Below, one piece after another: positions 25,175-60,237 of a DNA stretch of 64,000 nt. Within the stretch, counting starts at the first letter, position 1, and each line of letters opens with the position of its first letter. A model generated the notes under the pieces. It was not told where the DNA came from. It saw nothing but the letters and a program-made list of their open reading frames with translations, and ran no database searches. The position numbers and the translations under genes were made by a program. The stretch comes from Subtercola boreus (GTDB lineage Bacteria > Actinomycetota > Actinomycetes > Actinomycetales > Microbacteriaceae): the NCBI RefSeq assembly GCF_003399645.1, contig NZ_NBXD01000030.1, forward strand, positions 124,001 through 188,000. Direction: 5' to 3'.

Positions 25175-25618
25175 TCAGCGCGCGCTTATCGACTCCGTGA
25201 CCTGGCGAAGCGCTGCGCTGAGCGTTTCGAGTTCGCCGGGGTCGATGCCCTCGACCGCGACGCTCAACATCTCATTCAGGCCTGCGTGCATGTCCCGCAT
25301 GGTCTCGTGCCCCCGGCCGGAGAGCGTCAGGTACAGACTGCGCCGGTCTCCGGGATGAGCCTCTCGCTGGAGCAGACCGGCGGCGATGAGGCGGTCCGAG
25401 AGCCCGGTGATCGCTCCGTTCGTCACGCCGAGGTCGCTCGCCAGCTGCTTCGGAGTGATCTCCCGGGTCTCTGCCACCGCGAAGAGAGCCCGGAATTCGA
25501 TGCTCGACAGGCCGTGGTCGGCAGCCGCCCGCAGCCTACTGGCCTCCATGGCCCGAATGAAGGGGATCACGGCACCGGGAAAGCCCATCAGTTCGTATCG
25601 CGCATCCCCGTCGTTCAT
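25175..25618 (-). CDS. MarR-family transcriptional regulator
   Basis: This 147-residue winged-helix protein has the MarR layout: an N-terminal dimer helix, SSIEFRALFAVAETREITPK, the recognition region QLASDLGVTNGAITGLSDRL (about residues 59-78), and the wing HPGDRRSLYLTLSG with the typical DxR. The ATG follows GGAGG. It is divergent from the rhodopsin operon and the 196-bp gap holds an AT-rich palindrome, so control of that operon is likely. In Corynebacterium a divergent MarR protein (CrtR) controls carotenoid genes in response to isoprenoid diphosphates, a useful parallel but not proof. Confidence 0.9.
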   Translation of the reverse strand: MNDGDARYELMGFPGAVIPFIRAMEASRLRAAADHGLSSIEFRALFAVAETREITPKQLASDLGVTNGAITGLSDRLIAAGLLQREAHPGDRRSLYLTLSGRGHETMRDMHAGLNEMLSVAVEGIDPGELETLSAALRQVTESISAR

Positions 25619-25728
25619 GCACCCTCCGGCCGGTGCTCCTGCACCCTGTGTCTGTCAATGGCCCCACGACGGTGTCTGCGCACCGCGCCAAATGATACTC
25701 GACCAACCTCCACAGGGGTAGCCATATA

Positions 25729-25743
25729 TTTTAGTTTGTAAAA
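25729..25743. promoter_or_regulatory. candidate MarR operator upstream of the rhodopsin operon
   Basis: TTTTA-GTTTG-TAAAA is a perfect 5-bp inverted repeat with a 5-bp centre. It sits in the only strongly AT-rich stretch of the gap between the MarR gene and the rhodopsin gene, 72 bp before the rhodopsin start. MarR proteins typically bind AT-rich palindromes of about this size. Confidence 0.4.
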
Positions 25744-25814
25744 GATTTAGCGTCTGAATTACAGTCGAAGCTCCGGTAACCAACCGGCGACGCGACTCTC
25801 TCTGGAGGATTCCT

Positions 25815-26678
25815 GTGATTCCCGACACCCTGTCGAACGGGCAGTTCGAAACCGTCTACAACTTTCTGTCACTCGTGATCGCATCGCAGCTGTTCACGGC
25901 GGTGTTCCTTCTTATCTCGTTGCCGCGCATCCTTCCCCGGTACAGGCAGGCGATCACCGTGGCGATCATCGTCTGCGGTATTGCCGCCTATCACTACTTC
26001 CGCATCTTCGACTCGTTCAAGGGCGCGTTCGTCACCGACTCGGTCGGGGGAACCGGCACCTACACCCAGGCCATGGGCGAGGGTTTCAATGAGGGGTACC
26101 GGTACGTCGACTGGCTGCTGACCGTTCCGCTCCTGCTGGTCGAGCTCATCGCCGTGCTCGCCCTGACGCGCAAGATCCAGTCCAAGCTCCTCATCCGTCT
26201 CGTTCCCGCCGCGGCGCTCATGATCGCTCTCGGATACCCCGGCGAGATCAGCGGGGACAACGGCCTCCGCGGACTGTTCGGCATCCTGTCGACCATTCCG
26301 TTCGCCTACATTCTGTTCGTGCTGTTCACGCAGCTGAGCAAGTCCCTCGTGAACCAGCCGGCCGGAGTGCGTGGAACGCTGGGGCGTCTTCGTTTCCTGC
26401 TGCTGCTCAGCTGGGGCGTCTACCCGATCGCGTACCTGCTGCCCCTGCTGAACATCGCCGGCTCCGACGCCTGGGTGGCCAAGCAGGTCGGCTACTCGGT
26501 CGCTGACATCGTCGCCAAGGCGGTCTATGCGCTGATCATCTTCCACGTCGCCCGCATCAAGTCGTACGATGACGACCACGAATTCGCGGCGATCGAAACG
26601 TCTCGCGACGAGGTTCCCGACGAGCTGCGCGCCACTGGACACGACAGCGCGCGCACGTCCGCTCCGAAGGTGCGCTGA
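25815..26678 (+). CDS. light-driven proton-pumping rhodopsin (xanthorhodopsin/actinorhodopsin type)
   Basis: This 287-residue protein has seven membrane helices and binds retinal. Helix C reads YRYVDWLLTVPLLLVEL. It gives D99 (proton acceptor), T103 and E110 (proton donor), the DTE set of outward proton pumps, with L107 at the green-tuning site. H60 in helix B fits the His that pairs with the acceptor Asp. K235 in helix G (DIVAKAVYAL) holds retinal. G156 in helix E (LFGILSTIP) aligns with the glycine that leaves room for a carotenoid antenna in xanthorhodopsin. The GTG start follows GGAGG by six bases. It is first in an operon with crtY and blh. Confidence 0.95.
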   Translation: MIPDTLSNGQFETVYNFLSLVIASQLFTAVFLLISLPRILPRYRQAITVAIIVCGIAAYHYFRIFDSFKGAFVTDSVGGTGTYTQAMGEGFNEGYRYVDWLLTVPLLLVELIAVLALTRKIQSKLLIRLVPAAALMIALGYPGEISGDNGLRGLFGILSTIPFAYILFVLFTQLSKSLVNQPAGVRGTLGRLRFLLLLSWGVYPIAYLLPLLNIAGSDAWVAKQVGYSVADIVAKAVYALIIFHVARIKSYDDDHEFAAIETSRDEVPDELRATGHDSARTSAPKVR

Positions 26679-26681
26679 CCC

Positions 26682-27962
26682 GTGACACTCTCCTCGACGA
26701 CAGCCCATCTGCCACGAGGGGCTGTCGTCGAGGTTCCCCCGGAGCTGCTCCTGCCCGCCGGATCCACCGCGAACGGCGCAATCGGTCTGCACGACTACGT
26801 CATTCTCGGGGGAGGCTGCGCCGGGCTCTCCGCCGCCATCGCGCTCCTCGACGCGGGCGCTTCCGGCTCGATCCTGATCGTCGACTCACGTGTCGACTAC
26901 CGGGATGACCGCACGTGGTGCTTCTGGGATGTGGAACCGACGCCGTTCACACATCTCGCACGGGGTCGCTGGAACTCGTGGGAAGTGCGAAGCGCTGGCT
27001 CCCGCGCAGTCTCATCCCCCTCCGCCGGTCGAACCGCCTATGTGAGCATCGCGGCGAACGATTTCTACCTGTACGCCCTCGATCGTCTGGTCACAGCCGG
27101 CACCGTGAGGCTCCTGTTCGGCGAACCGGCTGAAGCCTACGTCGACACCGAAGACGAGGTCATCGTCACAACCGCCCGACACTCGCTCCGAGCCAGGCAG
27201 GTCATCGACGCCCGCGGGCTCGGCATGAGCGGGGTCGACAGAGCGCGGTCGAAGACCTCGGGGACCTCCTTGCCCCAGGCGTTCGTCGGCCTGCACATCG
27301 TGGCCGATCATCCGGTGTTCGATGAGGACTCGTGCCTGCTGATGGACTTCACGGTCGACCAGTCATGCGGACTGCGGTTCATGTACGTCGTTCCGGTCAG
27401 CGCGACCGAAGCCCTCGTCGAGAACGTCTTCCTCACCGAAACAGGGCTGAGTGAGGCGGCGTATGTGGCCGGTATCGAGCTGTATCTCGCTCGGTCGTTC
27501 GGGCTCGAGGCTCACCAGTACCGAGTGCTCTCCCGCGAGCGGGGGTGCATCCCGATGACCGACAGTGCCTTCGACAACCGCCCCTCCCCCCGGGTCACCC
27601 TGCTCGGGACTCTCGGCGGGGCGACCCGGCCGAGTACGGGGTACACCTTCCTCCGAATCCAACGCAGCTGCCGGGCCGCGGCGGCGCGGTTGGTGAACGG
27701 ATCGGAGCGGGGCGGCGAGAGCGACCCGTGCTCGCTCCTGGACTCCATCTTCCTGCGGTTCCTCCGAGACCATCCCGAGCGAGCACCCCGGGTTTTCCAT
27801 CGCATGTTCGACGCCGTCGACCCGAACGCACTGGTACGTTTTCTCTCCGACCAGAGCGATTGGCGCGACATCGCGCGGCTGATCATCGCCCTGCCGAAGA
27901 TCTGGTTCTTGGCCGCGGCTCTGAAGGTGCTCGTCGGGAGGCTCGGGAACGTGGCCCGGTGA
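26682..27962 (+). CDS. crtY: lycopene beta-cyclase CrtY
   Basis: This 426-residue FAD/NAD-dependent enzyme cyclises both ends of lycopene to give beta-carotene. The N-terminal dinucleotide motif is DYVILGGGCAGLSAAIAL (38-55), and the CrtY signature DDRTWCFWD is at 75-83. The late GTLGGATRPSTGYTF carries the conserved second FAD/substrate segment. The GTG start is 3 bp after the rhodopsin stop. Its end overlaps the blh start (GTGA). The order rhodopsin-crtY-blh means the beta-carotene is made for retinal. It is unrelated to the CrtYe/CrtYf cyclase encoded at 50 kb. Confidence 0.93.
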   Translation: MTLSSTTAHLPRGAVVEVPPELLLPAGSTANGAIGLHDYVILGGGCAGLSAAIALLDAGASGSILIVDSRVDYRDDRTWCFWDVEPTPFTHLARGRWNSWEVRSAGSRAVSSPSAGRTAYVSIAANDFYLYALDRLVTAGTVRLLFGEPAEAYVDTEDEVIVTTARHSLRARQVIDARGLGMSGVDRARSKTSGTSLPQAFVGLHIVADHPVFDEDSCLLMDFTVDQSCGLRFMYVVPVSATEALVENVFLTETGLSEAAYVAGIELYLARSFGLEAHQYRVLSRERGCIPMTDSAFDNRPSPRVTLLGTLGGATRPSTGYTFLRIQRSCRAAAARLVNGSERGGESDPCSLLDSIFLRFLRDHPERAPRVFHRMFDAVDPNALVRFLSDQSDWRDIARLIIALPKIWFLAAALKVLVGRLGNVAR

Positions 27963-29134
27963 GAACGCCGGGTGGCGACCTCGCCGTATGGCAGCTGGCG
28001 CGACGTCAGCTCTTCCTCCCGGTCGGCGTGCTGTTCGCCTGTCTCTCGATCGTCAGCGGCCTGGGCGTGCAGATCCCCGAACTCGTCCAGCTCCTGCCGT
28101 TCGCCGTGGGCCTGATCGTTCTGGGCCTTCCCCATGGCGCGTTGGACCACCTCGTACCGGCCCGGCTCGCGGGTCGACCCGCGACCTGGCGTACGATCGC
28201 GCCGGTCGTCGTGCTCTACGGGGTTCTCGGTGCGGTTGTGCTCGGGCTCTGGTGGGCGGCCCCTGGCCTCGCCTTCGTGTTCTTCATCGGGCTGACCTGG
28301 TTCCACTGGGGCCAGGGTGACCTGTTCGTCGTCACCCGCTGGAGGCAGGGTGCCGAGCCCGACCCCGGCTCTCCGCGGCTCCTCACACTCCAGCGGGCGG
28401 CAGATGCCGCAACCCTCGTTCTGCGGGGCGCCCTGCCGATGCTGGTGCCGCTGGTGGCCTTTCCGCAGACGTACCTGGCGACGGCGGCGAGCGCGGCGAA
28501 CCTCTTCGCTCCCGCCGGAGCGACTCCCGAGTCGGCGACGTCGAGCTGGACCGTGGTCACCGTGGCCGCTCTCACGTCAGAATCCGGCCGGGTCGCCATC
28601 GCTGTCGTGCTGGGTGCGGGAGTGCTCGGCACGATCATCCTGACCCGCCTGCAGGTGGCTCGGGTGGACGGTGAAGCGGCTGGGTCTCGGCTGCACATCG
28701 CGGGTCTTCGGGCGTGGCGGTGGGAGAGCATCGAGACGCTCGTTCTCGCGGTGTTCTTCAGCACCGTGCCGCCCGTGCTCGCGGTGGGCCTGTACTTCTG
28801 CCTGTGGCACTCCCTTCGCCACGTGGTGCGCCTCTGCCTGCTCGATGAGGCCCTGCGGGCGCCGCTGGCGGAGGGGCGGTTCCCCGTGGCCTTTGCCCGG
28901 TTCACCCGCCAGGCGGCCCCCGTCACCCTCATCGCCCTCGCGCTTCTGGTCGCGCTGTACGCCCTTGTTCCCCACCCGGAAGCCGACCCGACGTCGCTGC
29001 TCGGGCTGTATCTCGTGCTCATCTCCGCCCTGACCCTCCCACACGTGGTGATCGTTGCGCTGATGGACAGGGTGCAGGAGCGGGGCGCGAAGGTCGCCGC
29101 GAGCGGGATGATCGCCCTGCGCGATCGCGCTTGA
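27959..29134 (+). CDS. blh: Brp/Blh-family beta-carotene 15,15'-dioxygenase (retinal synthesis)
   Basis: This polytopic membrane protein of about 391 residues cleaves beta-carotene in the middle to give two retinals. The histidines that hold the iron in this family are visible: LPHGALDHLVP (H59, H64), TWFHWGQGD (H116) and LWHSLRHVV (H284, H288), with a further LPHVVIV (H362). I chose the GTG at 27959, overlapping the crtY stop as GTGA. The open frame extends further upstream only as crtY shadow. The central part (about 130-260) is longer than in many Blh proteins. It is the last gene of the rhodopsin operon. Confidence 0.92.
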   Translation: MRTPGGDLAVWQLARRQLFLPVGVLFACLSIVSGLGVQIPELVQLLPFAVGLIVLGLPHGALDHLVPARLAGRPATWRTIAPVVVLYGVLGAVVLGLWWAAPGLAFVFFIGLTWFHWGQGDLFVVTRWRQGAEPDPGSPRLLTLQRAADAATLVLRGALPMLVPLVAFPQTYLATAASAANLFAPAGATPESATSSWTVVTVAALTSESGRVAIAVVLGAGVLGTIILTRLQVARVDGEAAGSRLHIAGLRAWRWESIETLVLAVFFSTVPPVLAVGLYFCLWHSLRHVVRLCLLDEALRAPLAEGRFPVAFARFTRQAAPVTLIALALLVALYALVPHPEADPTSLLGLYLVLISALTLPHVVIVALMDRVQERGAKVAASGMIALRDRA

Positions 29135-48954: not shown

Positions 48955-48982
48955 ACGGCTGCCTCCCGCGGCGGTCAGCCGT
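48955..48982. terminator. possible bidirectional hairpin between UMF1 and crtEb
   Basis: ACGGCTG and CAGCCGT form 7-bp arms around a 14-base GC-rich loop in the short convergent gap. No T-run follows, so termination is only suggested. Confidence 0.3.
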
Positions 48983-49841
48983 TGATCAGCACGAACCAGA
49001 TGAGCAGCATCGTGACCAGAAAGCCCGAGACGAAGTTGAGGTAGAGAAACCTCCTCCAACCCACGTTGGCCCGTTCGGCATCCCGGTCGGTGATCGACCA
49101 GTAGGGCAGCACGCTGAACGCGTACGGAAGGGCCAGCAGGCTCGCGAGCGGGCCGGGCCAGCCGGTGAACAGCATCAGGATGCCGCCCAGCACGTAGGCG
49201 AAGAAGGCGAAGCGCACGGTCTGCCGCCCCCCGATCACGGTGGCGATCGACGAGATACCGCCCTCGCGGTCGGCCACGATGTCCTGTACGGCGCCGAAGG
49301 CGTGGCTGGCGATCCCCCAGAGGAAGAACGCGGCGAGGATGGCCCAGAGCGCCGGGGTGAAGGTGGCACCGGCGAGCACGAGGCCGTAGACGGCAGGGCT
49401 CACGAAATGGGTGCTCGAGGTGAGCGAGTCGACGAACGGCCGCTCCTTGAAGCGCAGCTTCGGCGCGCTGTAGGCGATCACCGCGAAGATGCTGATCGCG
49501 AGCACCAGCCAGGAGAGCGGCGAGCCGACGATGACGAGATATGCCAGGAACGGAATATTGGTCGCGGCGGCACTGACGAGCGTCACGCGGTGCAGCGACC
49601 GACTGAGCACCGCGCCCTCGACACCGCCCTTCCGCGGGTTTCGCATGTCGGATTCGTAGTCGAACACGTCGTTGATGCCGTACATCGCGAGGTTGTACGG
49701 CACGAGGAAGTACAGGGTGCCGAACACGAACGTCAGGTCGATCTCACGGGTGGTGAGGAAGTAGCCGGCCGCGAACGGAAAGGCGGTATTGATCCACGAC
49801 AGCGGCCGGGAGGAGAGCACGACCTGGCTGAAGGTGCTCAT
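48975..49841 (-). CDS. crtEb: lycopene elongase (UbiA-family prenyltransferase) CrtEb
   Basis: This 288-residue, roughly eight-helix prenyltransferase adds C5 units to lycopene on the way to C50 carotenoids. The first Asp-rich motif is NDVFDYESD (57-65), and the second is AVQDIVADREGG with the Asp pair, both as in UbiA proteins. It ends the operon idsA-crtB-crtI-crtYe-crtYf-crtEb and overlaps crtYf by 4 bp. The product may be flavuxanthin, which CrtYe/Yf then cyclise to a decaprenoxanthin-like pigment. Confidence 0.92.
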   Translation of the reverse strand: MSTFSQVVLSSRPLSWINTAFPFAAGYFLTTREIDLTFVFGTLYFLVPYNLAMYGINDVFDYESDMRNPRKGGVEGAVLSRSLHRVTLVSAAATNIPFLAYLVIVGSPLSWLVLAISIFAVIAYSAPKLRFKERPFVDSLTSSTHFVSPAVYGLVLAGATFTPALWAILAAFFLWGIASHAFGAVQDIVADREGGISSIATVIGGRQTVRFAFFAYVLGGILMLFTGWPGPLASLLALPYAFSVLPYWSITDRDAERANVGWRRFLYLNFVSGFLVTMLLIWFVLING

Positions 49842-50647: not shown

Positions 50648-52672
50648 TCACAGTGGTTCCGGGAGGGCCGTGGTGGAGGTGTCGCCGCGCAGGCGCTTGA
50701 TCACGAGTTCGGCGCTGATCAGGCACATCGGCAGGCCGATGCCGGGGATCGTGGATCCACCCGCGTAGTAGAGCCCGCCGACCTTCTTGCTCACGTTGCC
50801 CGCGCGAAAGAATGCACTCTGTGCGAGCGTGTGCGCCGGCCCGAGGGCGGTGCCGTTCCACGTGTTGAGGTCGTTCGCGAAGTCGGCGGGGCCGATGGTC
50901 CGCCGCACGGTGATGCGGGAGGCGAGGTCGGGGATGCCCGCCCACTCCCCGATCTGCGCGATGGCCTCATCGGCGATCGCCTCGACCCGGGCGTCGCCGC
51001 CACCGTCTTCCCCGCCCGATCCGATACCGGGGTCGGCGGGGATCGGTACGAGCACGAACAGGTTCTCGCTGCCCTCGGGCGCCACCTCCGGATCGGTCGC
51101 GCTGGGACGGCAGACGTAGATCGACGCCGGACTCGGAACCGAGGTCGTCGCCTTCCGCCCGATACCGACGGCCTTGGCCAGACCGGCCACGACGCCGCCC
51201 CTGCCGAAGATCTTCTCGAAGTCGGCCTTCCACGACTTGGTGAAGAACAGCGTGTGGTGGGCGAGCTCGGGCACCGCACCCGAGACGCCCAGGTAGATGA
51301 GGACGGCGCTCGGGCCGGCCGTCTTCTTCGCCCAGTACTTCTCGGGGTAGGTCTGCAGCTCCGGGAGGAGCATGGTGGTCTCGACGTGGCGGAGGTCGGT
51401 GGCGGCGACCACGATATCGGCGTCGATCGAGTGAGCGGCGCCGGTGCTGTCGAGATACTGCACGCCCGAGACGCGGGCAGGCGTGCGGTCGGCGGGTGCG
51501 ACCCCGGATGCCGCGGCCCTCCCCCGGGCGGCGGCCGGGGTCGGCGCGGTCGGGGTCGGCGCGGTCGGGGTCGCGGAGGTGGGAGCTGGGGCGGCGGCCC
51601 ACGTCGCGTCGGGCGCACTCTCGGCCTCCCCCTCGAGCACCCGGCGCAGCTCGTCGCGGTCGACCACATTGGTGTCGAACTCGGTGGTGTCGTAGTCGTA
51701 CGGGCCGGGTGCGGGCTCCGGGTGCGCGGCCGCCTCCACCCCGTCATCGGTGGTGACGATGCGCGACACCGCAGCGCCCGTGACGATCGTGACCCCGGCC
51801 GACTCGGCGAGCTGGCGGATGCTCTCGATCACCCGGGCGAGGCCGCCCTGCGGGTAGAGCACACCGTCTTCGAGGTCGAGATGGCTCATCAGGTGGTACA
51901 TGCTCGGAGTGGAATACGGCGACGACCCGAGGAACACGGCCGGGTAACCGAGGATCTGCTGCAGCCGCGGATCACGCACGGTGCGACCGGCGAGACTGCT
52001 CAGCGACTCGAGCAACAGCCGAACGAGGCGGGGCGAGCGCTTCAGCACCGGCCCCTTCACCAGCGGTCGGAAGTCTTCGAACGTCGAATAGAGGAAATAC
52101 TCCTTGGCGAGTTCGTAGGTCTCGGCGGCAGAGTCGAGGTACCCCGCCATGCGCACGCCCGCGCCGGGTTCCATCGACTCGAAGAGCTCGAGGTTCTCCT
52201 CCCGGGACGCCGCGATGTCGACGGGGTGGAACTCGTCCTGGAACAGCACCCGGTAGCCGGGGTCGAGCTTGGAGAGGTCGAGCTCGGCGTCGGCAGACGA
52301 GCCCATCAGCTTGTAGAAGTGATCGAACACCTCCGGCATCAGGTACCACGACGGGCCGGTGTCGAAGCGGAAGCCGTCTTTCTCCCAGAGCCCGGCGCGC
52401 CCGCCGACCGTCTCCTGCTTCTCGAGAACCGTCACGCTGTAGCCCTCACGTGCGAGGAGTCCCGCCGTGGCGAGTCCACTGATGCCGGCGCCGATCACCA
52501 CGGCCGTCTTGCCCACTCCGGGCCGGCCGGCGGAGGCGGCAGGCTGTGTGGAGGCGCGCTGGTTCTGCAGCACGAAATCTTTCGGCAATCGGTCGATGAC
52601 CTCGGTCTCTCCGTCGACGAGGTCGTCGAAGCTGTTGCCCTGGCTGGGCCCTCGGTCGTGCTCGGAACTCAA
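50648..52672 (-). CDS. crtI: phytoene desaturase CrtI, with N-terminal extension and central insertion
   Basis: This 674-residue flavoenzyme turns phytoene into lycopene. FAD binding is at VVIGAGISGLATAGLLAREG (58-77). RFDTGPSWYLMP and the C-terminal GLYYAGGSTIPGIGLPMCLI are the CrtI signatures. It is well above the usual 490-560 residues. An N-terminal stretch of about 55 residues precedes the FAD motif, and residues about 311-400 are an Ala/Pro/Thr-rich, disordered insertion between conserved segments. It overlaps crtB by 4 bp. Confidence 0.94.
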   Translation of the reverse strand: MSSEHDRGPSQGNSFDDLVDGETEVIDRLPKDFVLQNQRASTQPAASAGRPGVGKTAVVIGAGISGLATAGLLAREGYSVTVLEKQETVGGRAGLWEKDGFRFDTGPSWYLMPEVFDHFYKLMGSSADAELDLSKLDPGYRVLFQDEFHPVDIAASREENLELFESMEPGAGVRMAGYLDSAAETYELAKEYFLYSTFEDFRPLVKGPVLKRSPRLVRLLLESLSSLAGRTVRDPRLQQILGYPAVFLGSSPYSTPSMYHLMSHLDLEDGVLYPQGGLARVIESIRQLAESAGVTIVTGAAVSRIVTTDDGVEAAAHPEPAPGPYDYDTTEFDTNVVDRDELRRVLEGEAESAPDATWAAAPAPTSATPTAPTPTAPTPAAARGRAAASGVAPADRTPARVSGVQYLDSTGAAHSIDADIVVAATDLRHVETTMLLPELQTYPEKYWAKKTAGPSAVLIYLGVSGAVPELAHHTLFFTKSWKADFEKIFGRGGVVAGLAKAVGIGRKATTSVPSPASIYVCRPSATDPEVAPEGSENLFVLVPIPADPGIGSGGEDGGGDARVEAIADEAIAQIGEWAGIPDLASRITVRRTIGPADFANDLNTWNGTALGPAHTLAQSAFFRAGNVSKKVGGLYYAGGSTIPGIGLPMCLISAELVIKRLRGDTSTTALPEPL

Positions 52673-54777: not shown

Positions 54778-55335
54778 ATGGCTGTCTCAGATGAGCAGGT
54801 CGTGCTACTGTCCGACGCCGGAATACCGATCGGAGTCGCTCCCAAGGCGACCGTGCACACGGCCGACACTCCCCTGCACCTCGCGTTCTCCTGCCACGTG
54901 TTCGACGTCACGGGCCGCGTTCTCGTGACGCGCCGCGCACTGTCGAAGCGCACGTGGCCCGGGGTCTGGACGAACTCGTTCTGCGGGCATCCCGCACCCG
55001 GTGAATCGTTCGAGGGCGCGCTGGAACGCCGCGCGCTCGATGAGCTCGGACTGGGGTCGGGCGCGCTCACGAAGGTCGAGGTGGCGCTGCCCGACTTCCG
55101 CTACCGAGCGGTCGACGCGTCGGGCATCGTCGAGTACGAGATCTGCCCGGTGTACTCGGCGGTGCTGGAGGCTCCGGATGATCTGCAGTTCAGTACCGAC
55201 GAAGTAGTCGAGGTTCAGTGGTGCGAGCCGTCCGCGCTGCTGGCCTCCATCGAGGCGACGCCGTGGGCGTTCAGCCCGTGGCTGACGCTGCAGCTCCCCT
55301 CGCTCATGGCGGCCCGCGCCGAGCTCGCGGCCTGA
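54778..55335 (+). CDS. idi: isopentenyl-diphosphate delta-isomerase, type I
   Basis: This 185-residue Nudix-fold enzyme interconverts IPP and DMAPP, supplying the carotenoid operon. Catalytic Cys69 is in NSFCGHPAPGE. The metal ligands lie in HLAFSCHVFD and in the Nudix-like EGALERRALDELGL, and the catalytic Glu lies in IVEYEICPVY. The ATG has a GAGG-type ribosome site. It is divergent from idsA. Confidence 0.94.
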   Translation: MAVSDEQVVLLSDAGIPIGVAPKATVHTADTPLHLAFSCHVFDVTGRVLVTRRALSKRTWPGVWTNSFCGHPAPGESFEGALERRALDELGLGSGALTKVEVALPDFRYRAVDASGIVEYEICPVYSAVLEAPDDLQFSTDEVVEVQWCEPSALLASIEATPWAFSPWLTLQLPSLMAARAELAA

Positions 55336-59874: not shown

Positions 59875-59976
59875 TCCCCAGCCGGGCCTCACCCGAACCG
59901 GCGAATGTACATCTGTGACAAAGTCTCGTATTCTTGATGGGAAAGCGACACTTACTCACTAAAAGAAGGACTCCTC

Positions 59977-60237
59977 ATGAGCGGAACACCCTACGCCGGC
60001 GCCAACCCGGTCAAACTCAACACCCTGGCCATCGTGGCGATCATCGGCGGCTTCGTCTTTCCCCTCGCCGGGATCATCTGCGGCGTGATCTCCCTCCGGC
60101 AGATCAAGGAGACGGGCGAGCGCGGGCACGGGCTCGCTCTCGGCGGCATCATCGTCGGAATCGCGGTGATCATCATCGGGCTGCTGGTCGGCATCATCAG
60201 TGCCGTCGCGGGTGCGGCGATGGGCGCCGGGTACTAG
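59977..60237 (+). CDS. DUF4190-domain membrane protein
   Basis: This 86-residue protein has two membrane helices: TLAIVAIIGGFVFPLAGIIC and LALGGIIVGIAVIIIGLLVG. Between them, GVISLRQIKETGERGHG is the conserved DUF4190 loop. It is the typical small actinobacterial form with a short polar N-terminus. The ATG follows AAGGA. The family has no known function. It is divergent from the FAD oxidoreductase and converges with the GNAT-AAA gene. Confidence 0.9.
   Translation: MSGTPYAGANPVKLNTLAIVAIIGGFVFPLAGIICGVISLRQIKETGERGHGLALGGIIVGIAVIIIGLLVGIISAVAGAAMGAGY

Follow-up and report, generated by a model that had tools for sequence, protein, structure and literature searches.

The decision of a bacterium to produce a light-driven pump is poorly understood, and the question is raised by a phototrophy locus of Subtercola boreus in which a rhodopsin gene, followed by genes for a CrtY-type lycopene cyclase and the beta-carotene 15,15'-dioxygenase Blh, stands divergently from a gene for a MarR-family regulator: does the cassette have a switch of its own, and what would operate it? 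The locus lies in a 64,000-nucleotide stretch of contig NZ_NBXD01000030.1 (positions 124,001 to 188,000; hereafter the window, numbered from its first letter), for which a preliminary description had proposed a dedicated switch made up of the MarR protein and a TTTTA-N5-TAAAA palindrome in the 196-bp gap between the divergent genes. Gene and palindrome are both present at that place, and we favor, at a probability of roughly 0.75, the explanation that the locus is a phototrophy cassette under a local MarR repressor that acts at a 19-bp palindrome and is released by a ligand. Mechanistically, a MarR dimer would bind the palindrome and, as is usual for the family, repress the rhodopsin-crtY-blh operon and probably also the MarR gene, until a putative small ligand released it from the DNA; lycopene from a C50 carotenoid operon would be converted to beta-carotene by CrtY and to retinal by Blh, and the rhodopsin would pump protons in the light. 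The case for a dedicated switch is strong because of the comparison among relatives, not because of the palindrome alone: the adjacency of the two genes is conserved, the operator-like palindrome is absent upstream of rhodopsins that lack the MarR gene, a model trained without the window picks TTTTA-N5-TAAAA, and recognition helix and putative operator vary together. Such a conserved MarR-operator pair would be a testable switch in Actinobacteria, several of them cultured (Subtercola, Cryobacterium, Arthrobacter, Microbacterium), and the ligand of MarR would reveal the cue that turns phototrophy on.

Linkage of MarR and rhodopsin genes among relatives

Two sets of relatives were compared, which partly overlap (locus L032 of one is genome G008 of the other), so that their counts cannot be summed. 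The named set comprises the best 80 of 554 loci around rhodopsin relatives, a few of them with little upstream sequence, and a divergent MarR homologue stands directly upstream of the rhodopsin in 22, the genera with linked loci including Subtercola, Cryobacterium, Frigoribacterium, Glaciihabitans, Salinibacterium, Microbacterium, Arthrobacter, Pseudarthrobacter, Nesterenkonia, and Ornithinimicrobium. The family set comprises 398 genomes, in which a rhodopsin match was taken at E≤1e-60 (close at E<1e-120) and a MarR match at E≤1e-22, with the best nine first-look MarR candidates scored per genome, a limit that may have passed over weak MarR relatives. Rhodopsin matches occurred in 58 of these genomes, 30 close and 28 distant; of the 30, 23 have a MarR gene divergently next to the close rhodopsin (one rhodopsin counted as MarR-less, in G229, is 559 bases away from the end of its contig). 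A MarR match was found in 24 of the 30 close-rhodopsin genomes, versus none of the 28 with distant rhodopsins only and 1 of the 368 without a close rhodopsin. The matches fall at 31 places in 25 genomes, 23 of them divergently adjoining a close rhodopsin; the remaining eight are weaker and located elsewhere, six being second copies. Within the genus, MarR was present in 5 of 6 genomes that have this type of rhodopsin versus 0 of 6 that lack it (E≤1e-25).

Evolutionarily, the linkage label requires four changes on a quick rhodopsin tree of 101 sequences, against a mean of ~31 in shuffles (L085, L097, and L137 were left out for their short upstream sequence), which is consistent with one gain and three losses across three families. 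The linked rhodopsins fall within one clade of 41 (support 87), three members of which are MarR-less. At the exception within the genus, in genome G003 (L116/L230), a divergent gene that looks Fur-like by eye replaces MarR, and that genome gave no Blh match.

The candidate operator and the MarR recognition helix

Removal of near-copies (L004, L006, L044, and L128) left 34 MarR-rhodopsin gaps for the operator model, its leave-one-out test and the helix counts, with 65 of 66 MarR-less upstream regions as model controls (one was too short for scoring); the count of half-site pairs had its own redundancy filter, again giving 34 gaps, and 49 of the 66 MarR-less regions as controls. The gaps have in common a TAACTTACTNAGTAAGTTA-like palindrome: ACTTA-N1-TAAGT occurs in 13 of the 34 and ACTTA-N5-TAAGT in 11, both are found in 0 of 49 controls, and in 30 dinucleotide shuffles no half-site pair at any spacing reached more than 4 gaps. 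Motif widths of 11, 13, 15, 17, 19, and 21 were all tried, and the 19-bp palindromic model scored 212 on the real set versus 31–42 on 20 shuffled sets. Trained without the window and two S. boreus-type relatives, this model picks TATTTTAGTTTGTAAAAGA in the window, centered on the TTTTA-N5-TAAAA palindrome, at 16.5 bits, a score that 0 of 2000 Markov sequences attain and that compares with 9.7 bits for the best of the 65 controls. The same site is the top match across the whole window, and TTTTAN5TAAAA occurs at a single place in the genome of 3,670,876 bases (reversed control pattern: none). When each gap was left out in turn, 25 of the 34 scored above all 65 controls. Across the 764,813 bases of the 80 named loci, 11 matches reach at least 16.4 bits, one of them in L099 and 10 in MarR-rhodopsin gaps, which are also training data for the model.

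The recognition-helix segment of the window MarR is TNGAITGLSDRL, and helix position 67 divides the linked loci, being T at 21 gaps and N, K, or G at 13. Half-sites ACTTA/TAAGT occur in 19 of the 21 T-type gaps versus 2 of the 13 others, and TTTAGT/ACTAAA in none of the former versus 6 of the latter; the window MarR is of N type, and its candidate operator carries TTTAGT. A candidate GTTCAC/GTGAAC-like site for K-type helices was found at just 3 of the 5 loci with such a helix. Across the linked loci, recognition helix and predicted operator class differ together.

Several results weigh against a dedicated MarR switch. Nine of the 34 gaps (L041, L046, L050, L052, L058, L122, L124, L125, and L132) do not score above all controls, and three rhodopsins of the linked clade (Clavibacter L033, Salinibacterium L045, and Subtercola G003) have no MarR. 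In the MarR tree, the linked proteins lie on one side of a branch with weak support (42/94), and the 14 N/K/G rows form one clade, so that the covariation of helix and operator may be one event, not 34. At widths 15 and 17 the model finds the same place in the window weakly (P 0.03 and 0.017), in another register of the motif, into which the fit slips because the motif repeats with a period of 4 bp. No sigma-70-like promoter was located in 25619–25814, hence no overlap of operator and promoter is demonstrated. Finally, a different palindrome, TGAAC-N5-GTTCA, recurs among the MarR-less controls (7 of 49), so that a shared palindrome is not in itself special to MarR loci.

The controls' palindrome, the AT-richness of the operator motif, and TTGACT-like hexamers that overlap the palindrome in some gaps (by eye) would suit a site of another factor or a core-promoter feature, with MarR binding elsewhere or nowhere. 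We hold this to be very improbable, however, as a simple promoter would not have to be a palindrome, none of the 65 MarR-less regions attains the score of the window, and the palindrome motif varies with the MarR recognition helix. Autoregulation is common among divergent MarR genes, and with no promoter located in the gap the palindrome could serve either side; the MarR protein might control only its own gene, or some other target, next to a rhodopsin operon that is a mere neighbor with its own promoter. This, too, appears distinctly unlikely, since most MarR matches of the family adjoin a close rhodopsin (23 of 31), the genes downstream of rhodopsin vary among the nine loci inspected, and just one of the 368 genomes without a close rhodopsin has a MarR match. 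In 31 of the 34 gaps, moreover, the center of the best site lies between 39 and 92 bp ahead of the rhodopsin start (79 bp before the start codon in the window).

A wider regulon was considered and rejected: the window genome has the exact core at one place, and in the genomes of nine relatives the consensus (at most three mismatches) was matched 15 times, spread over 8 genomes and with 7 of the matches at the rhodopsin gap, versus 29 places for the reversed control; the consensus thus shows no genome-wide enrichment. At that threshold G269 and G384 have no consensus match at their own rhodopsin gaps; the G269 gap (L135) does contain a model site, whereas that of G384 (L122) fails the model too. 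A second match in the window (59948–59966, 14.9 bits) lies just upstream of a small membrane-protein-like open reading frame (ORF) at 59978; upstream of the neighboring oxidase gene, 11 other genomes of the genus give a best of 3.8 bits, and we take this match as chance. The proposed separation of the switch from the C50 operon is borne out by its position at a separate locus, ~20 kb from the MarR-rhodopsin genes, and the C50 region has no operator-model match of at least 13 bits.

A putative MarR ligand and the supply of retinal

The MarR domain spans residues 38–94 of the regulator. An AlphaFold model from a 13-row alignment (A1, in which the L032 row starts one residue upstream, its coordinates having been set by hand) has a mean pLDDT (predicted local distance difference test) of 89, and it has MarR-protein matches in the PDB, at 16–30% identity among the 50 matches listed. 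Linked MarRs are set apart from seven paralogues by H111 (38 of 38 versus 0 of 7, which have six Y and one G), F46 (37 of 38 versus 0 of 7), and H104 (34 of 38 versus 1 of 7), and H111 may mark a common ligand or a dimer interface. Thiol-redox sensing is unlikely, because the window MarR has no cysteine, as is true of 31 of the 38 linked MarRs. A MarR paralogue subfamily is present in some of the same genomes (L163, L167, L168, and L170, in G369, G306, G109, and G171, respectively), and in some of these loci it stands beside ApbE-like or FMN-binding-like ORFs (by eye), not beside a rhodopsin.

Characterized MarR proteins mostly act as repressors, which, together with the finding by Pfam of a MarR-type domain alone in this 147-residue protein, argues against an activator or a light-dependent factor in place of a ligand-released repressor; we regard that alternative as unlikely. 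It would be suggested by CrtR, a MarR protein tied to light-inducible carotenoid production in Corynebacterium glutamicum, yet light-absorbing molecules added in the same study had no effect on the binding of CrtR to DNA, as far as the available part of that paper goes (PMC6739363).

Of the 12 genomes of the genus, 3 have Blh, always within the rhodopsin operon. The 23 linked genomes of the family divide into 7 with Blh inside the operon, 1 with it nearby, 5 with it elsewhere, and 10 without it (of which G249 is 82% complete and the other nine at least 93%). Since crtY-blh sits in the rhodopsin operon in 7 of 23 (six relatives' operons were checked) and Blh is absent in 10, the conserved unit is, as judged from gene content, MarR plus opsin, with crtY-blh a variable add-on. 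RPE65-family matches were found in none of 12 genomes (the 10 Blh-less linked genomes, the window genome, and G003). The Blh-less genomes would have to scavenge retinal or use an unknown route, and an unidentified route is possible given the case of A. minutum, which, according to the part of the report available, forms retinal and a working rhodopsin although it has none of the known retinal genes (PMC7734400). It is conceivable, if improbable, that the linked MarR is a chromophore sensor that binds retinal or a direct precursor near H111, so that opsin would be made only when the chromophore is available. Such sensing would account for the retention of the MarR-opsin pair by the 10 of 23 linked genomes that have neither a Blh nor an RPE65-family match, with crtY-blh optional. 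That genomes devoid of known retinal-forming enzymes keep the switch beside their opsins is relevant to which chromophore those opsins use, or to another role for them.

Known systems and features of the window

The rhodopsin has all of the pump residues H60, D99, T103, E110, D231, and K235, its helix-C D-T-E set and retinal lysine aligning to Gloeobacter rhodopsin (6nwd), and the closest solved structures are 9hfk, 6nwd, 9wfa, and xanthorhodopsin (3ddl). G156 aligns with a glycine of 6nwd, number 178 by counting, which we take to be the fenestration glycine of the carotenoid antenna. The matching glycine of an actinorhodopsin, ActR-13023, is named in the available part of PMC8113403, and D-T-E, the retinal lysine, and the glycine at the fenestration position are thus shared with the xanthorhodopsin, Gloeobacter rhodopsin, and actinorhodopsin pumps. 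We predict a xanthorhodopsin/actinorhodopsin-type proton pump, with pump activity and antenna binding likewise predicted. The window genome has a second rhodopsin, outside the window (G000:C30:30499-31494, L121), which is 32% identical to the first and looks like a CryoRhodopsin; the published CryoRhodopsins come from the same genera (Cryobacterium and Subtercola) and belong to a clade that differs from that of the window rhodopsin, by the portion of the source at hand (PMC12227055). Distant second-type rhodopsins were matched in 9 of 12 genomes of the genus, and the 18.7 kb around the second rhodopsin held no operator-model match of at least 13 bits. A plasmid search gave just two distant rhodopsins, 43% identical, in Polymorphobacter.

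The preliminary description had also named CrtR as a precedent, and this stands as an analogy. CrtR of C. glutamicum and its actinobacterial orthologues is described, in the parts available, as a MarR-type repressor of the crt operon that responds to geranylgeranyl pyrophosphate (PMC5401885, PMC7432914, PMC6739363), an effect not reproduced in PMC6739363. Like the window MarR, it belongs to the MarR family and is divergent from an isoprenoid- or carotenoid-related operon, and, as is predicted for the window MarR, it has a small local regulon and a site in the shared intergenic region. The details do not fit: CrtR has 195 residues with its helix-turn-helix at 73–134, requires a TTAA core (PMC5401885), and adjoins crtE/the crt operon or mmpL, whereas the window MarR has 147 residues with its domain at 38–94, a candidate 19-bp palindromic site without TTAA, and a rhodopsin neighbor. 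A CrtR orthologue was therefore set aside on length, neighbors, and site, by the published description, not by sequence comparison; the word "rhodopsin" has 0 occurrences in the main texts of the three papers.

The cluster itself has a published counterpart in the Antarctic actinobacterium Marisediminicola antarctica, where xanthorhodopsin, lycopene cyclase, and Blh follow in the same order and a C50 crt cluster lies elsewhere in the genome (PMC6669644). Unlike our proposal for the window, the available text of that report makes its sole mention of MarR at the C50 cluster, and neither a regulator nor an operator is given there for the rhodopsin genes. Transcripts of rhodopsin in two freshwater relatives are reported, in the part of the paper available, to rise in the dark (PMC8591293). 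Full-text literature searches, out of reach of most subscription papers and all preprints, gave no paper whose listing or consulted passages describe a MarR regulator or operator for a rhodopsin. The operon layout is already known; the MarR-operator pair for a rhodopsin would be a new subfamily of a familiar design.

Table 1 Positions of the phototrophy cassette, its candidate control elements, and the carotenoid genes in the window
Feature	Position	Strand	Basis
MarR-family regulator, 147 aa	25175-25618	-	Pfam MarR PF01047, 8.1e-13, 48.5 bits vs cut-off 24.6
Divergent intergenic region MarR/rhodopsin, 196 bp	25619-25814		Sequence
Candidate MarR operator TATTTTAGTTTGTAAAAGA, 19 bp	25727-25745		Palindromic model, 16.5 bits
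Candidate operator core TTTTA-N5-TAAAA, read as TTTTAGTTTGTAAAA	25729-25743		Sequence
Rhodopsin ribosome-binding site GGAGGA	25804-25809	+	Sequence; upstream of rhodopsin GTG
Predicted proton-pump rhodopsin, xanthorhodopsin/actinorhodopsin type, 287 aa	25815-26678	+	Pfam Bac_rhodopsin, 1.1e-37
CrtY-type lycopene cyclase, 426 aa	26682-27962	+	Pfam Lycopene_cycl PF05834, 4.5e-49
Blh beta-carotene 15,15'-dioxygenase, 391 aa	27959-29134	+	Pfam BCD PF15461, 7.8e-67; TIGR03753, 204.9 bits
C50 carotenoid operon: crtEb, two small C50 cyclase-like ORFs (Yf/Ye), crtI, crtB, crtE	48975-~54770	-	ORF inspection
idi-like ORF beside C50 operon	54778-55335	+	Inspection

The description of rhodopsin, CrtY, and Blh as one tight operon agrees with the junctions read in the sequence and with the Pfam identities of the genes (Table 1): the rhodopsin stop TGA (26676–26678) is followed by CCC (3 bp) and the CrtY GTG at 26682, and the CrtY stop TGA (27960–27962) lies inside a GTGA shared with the Blh GTG (27959–27961), an overlap that fixes the start of the Blh coding sequence. 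On its other side, the MarR gene is flanked by a nitroreductase-family gene. Blh scores over the TIGR03753 cut-off (95.25 bits) and is predicted to form retinal; CrtY, which scores under the NCBIfam cut-offs of both TIGR01790 and TIGR01789, would convert lycopene to beta-carotene. "Complete", as the operon had been called, is right for the pump, CrtY, and Blh, and less so for lycopene, which would have to come from elsewhere, crtE, crtB, and crtI of the C50 operon being the probable suppliers for retinal synthesis. The profile test covered a single C50 ORF, the crtEb-like one (48978–49841; UbiA 8.1e-29), the others having been assigned by inspection. The CrtI-like phytoene desaturase ORF (50648–52672) has a long low-complexity insert, rich in Pro, Ala, and Thr, in the middle of the protein.

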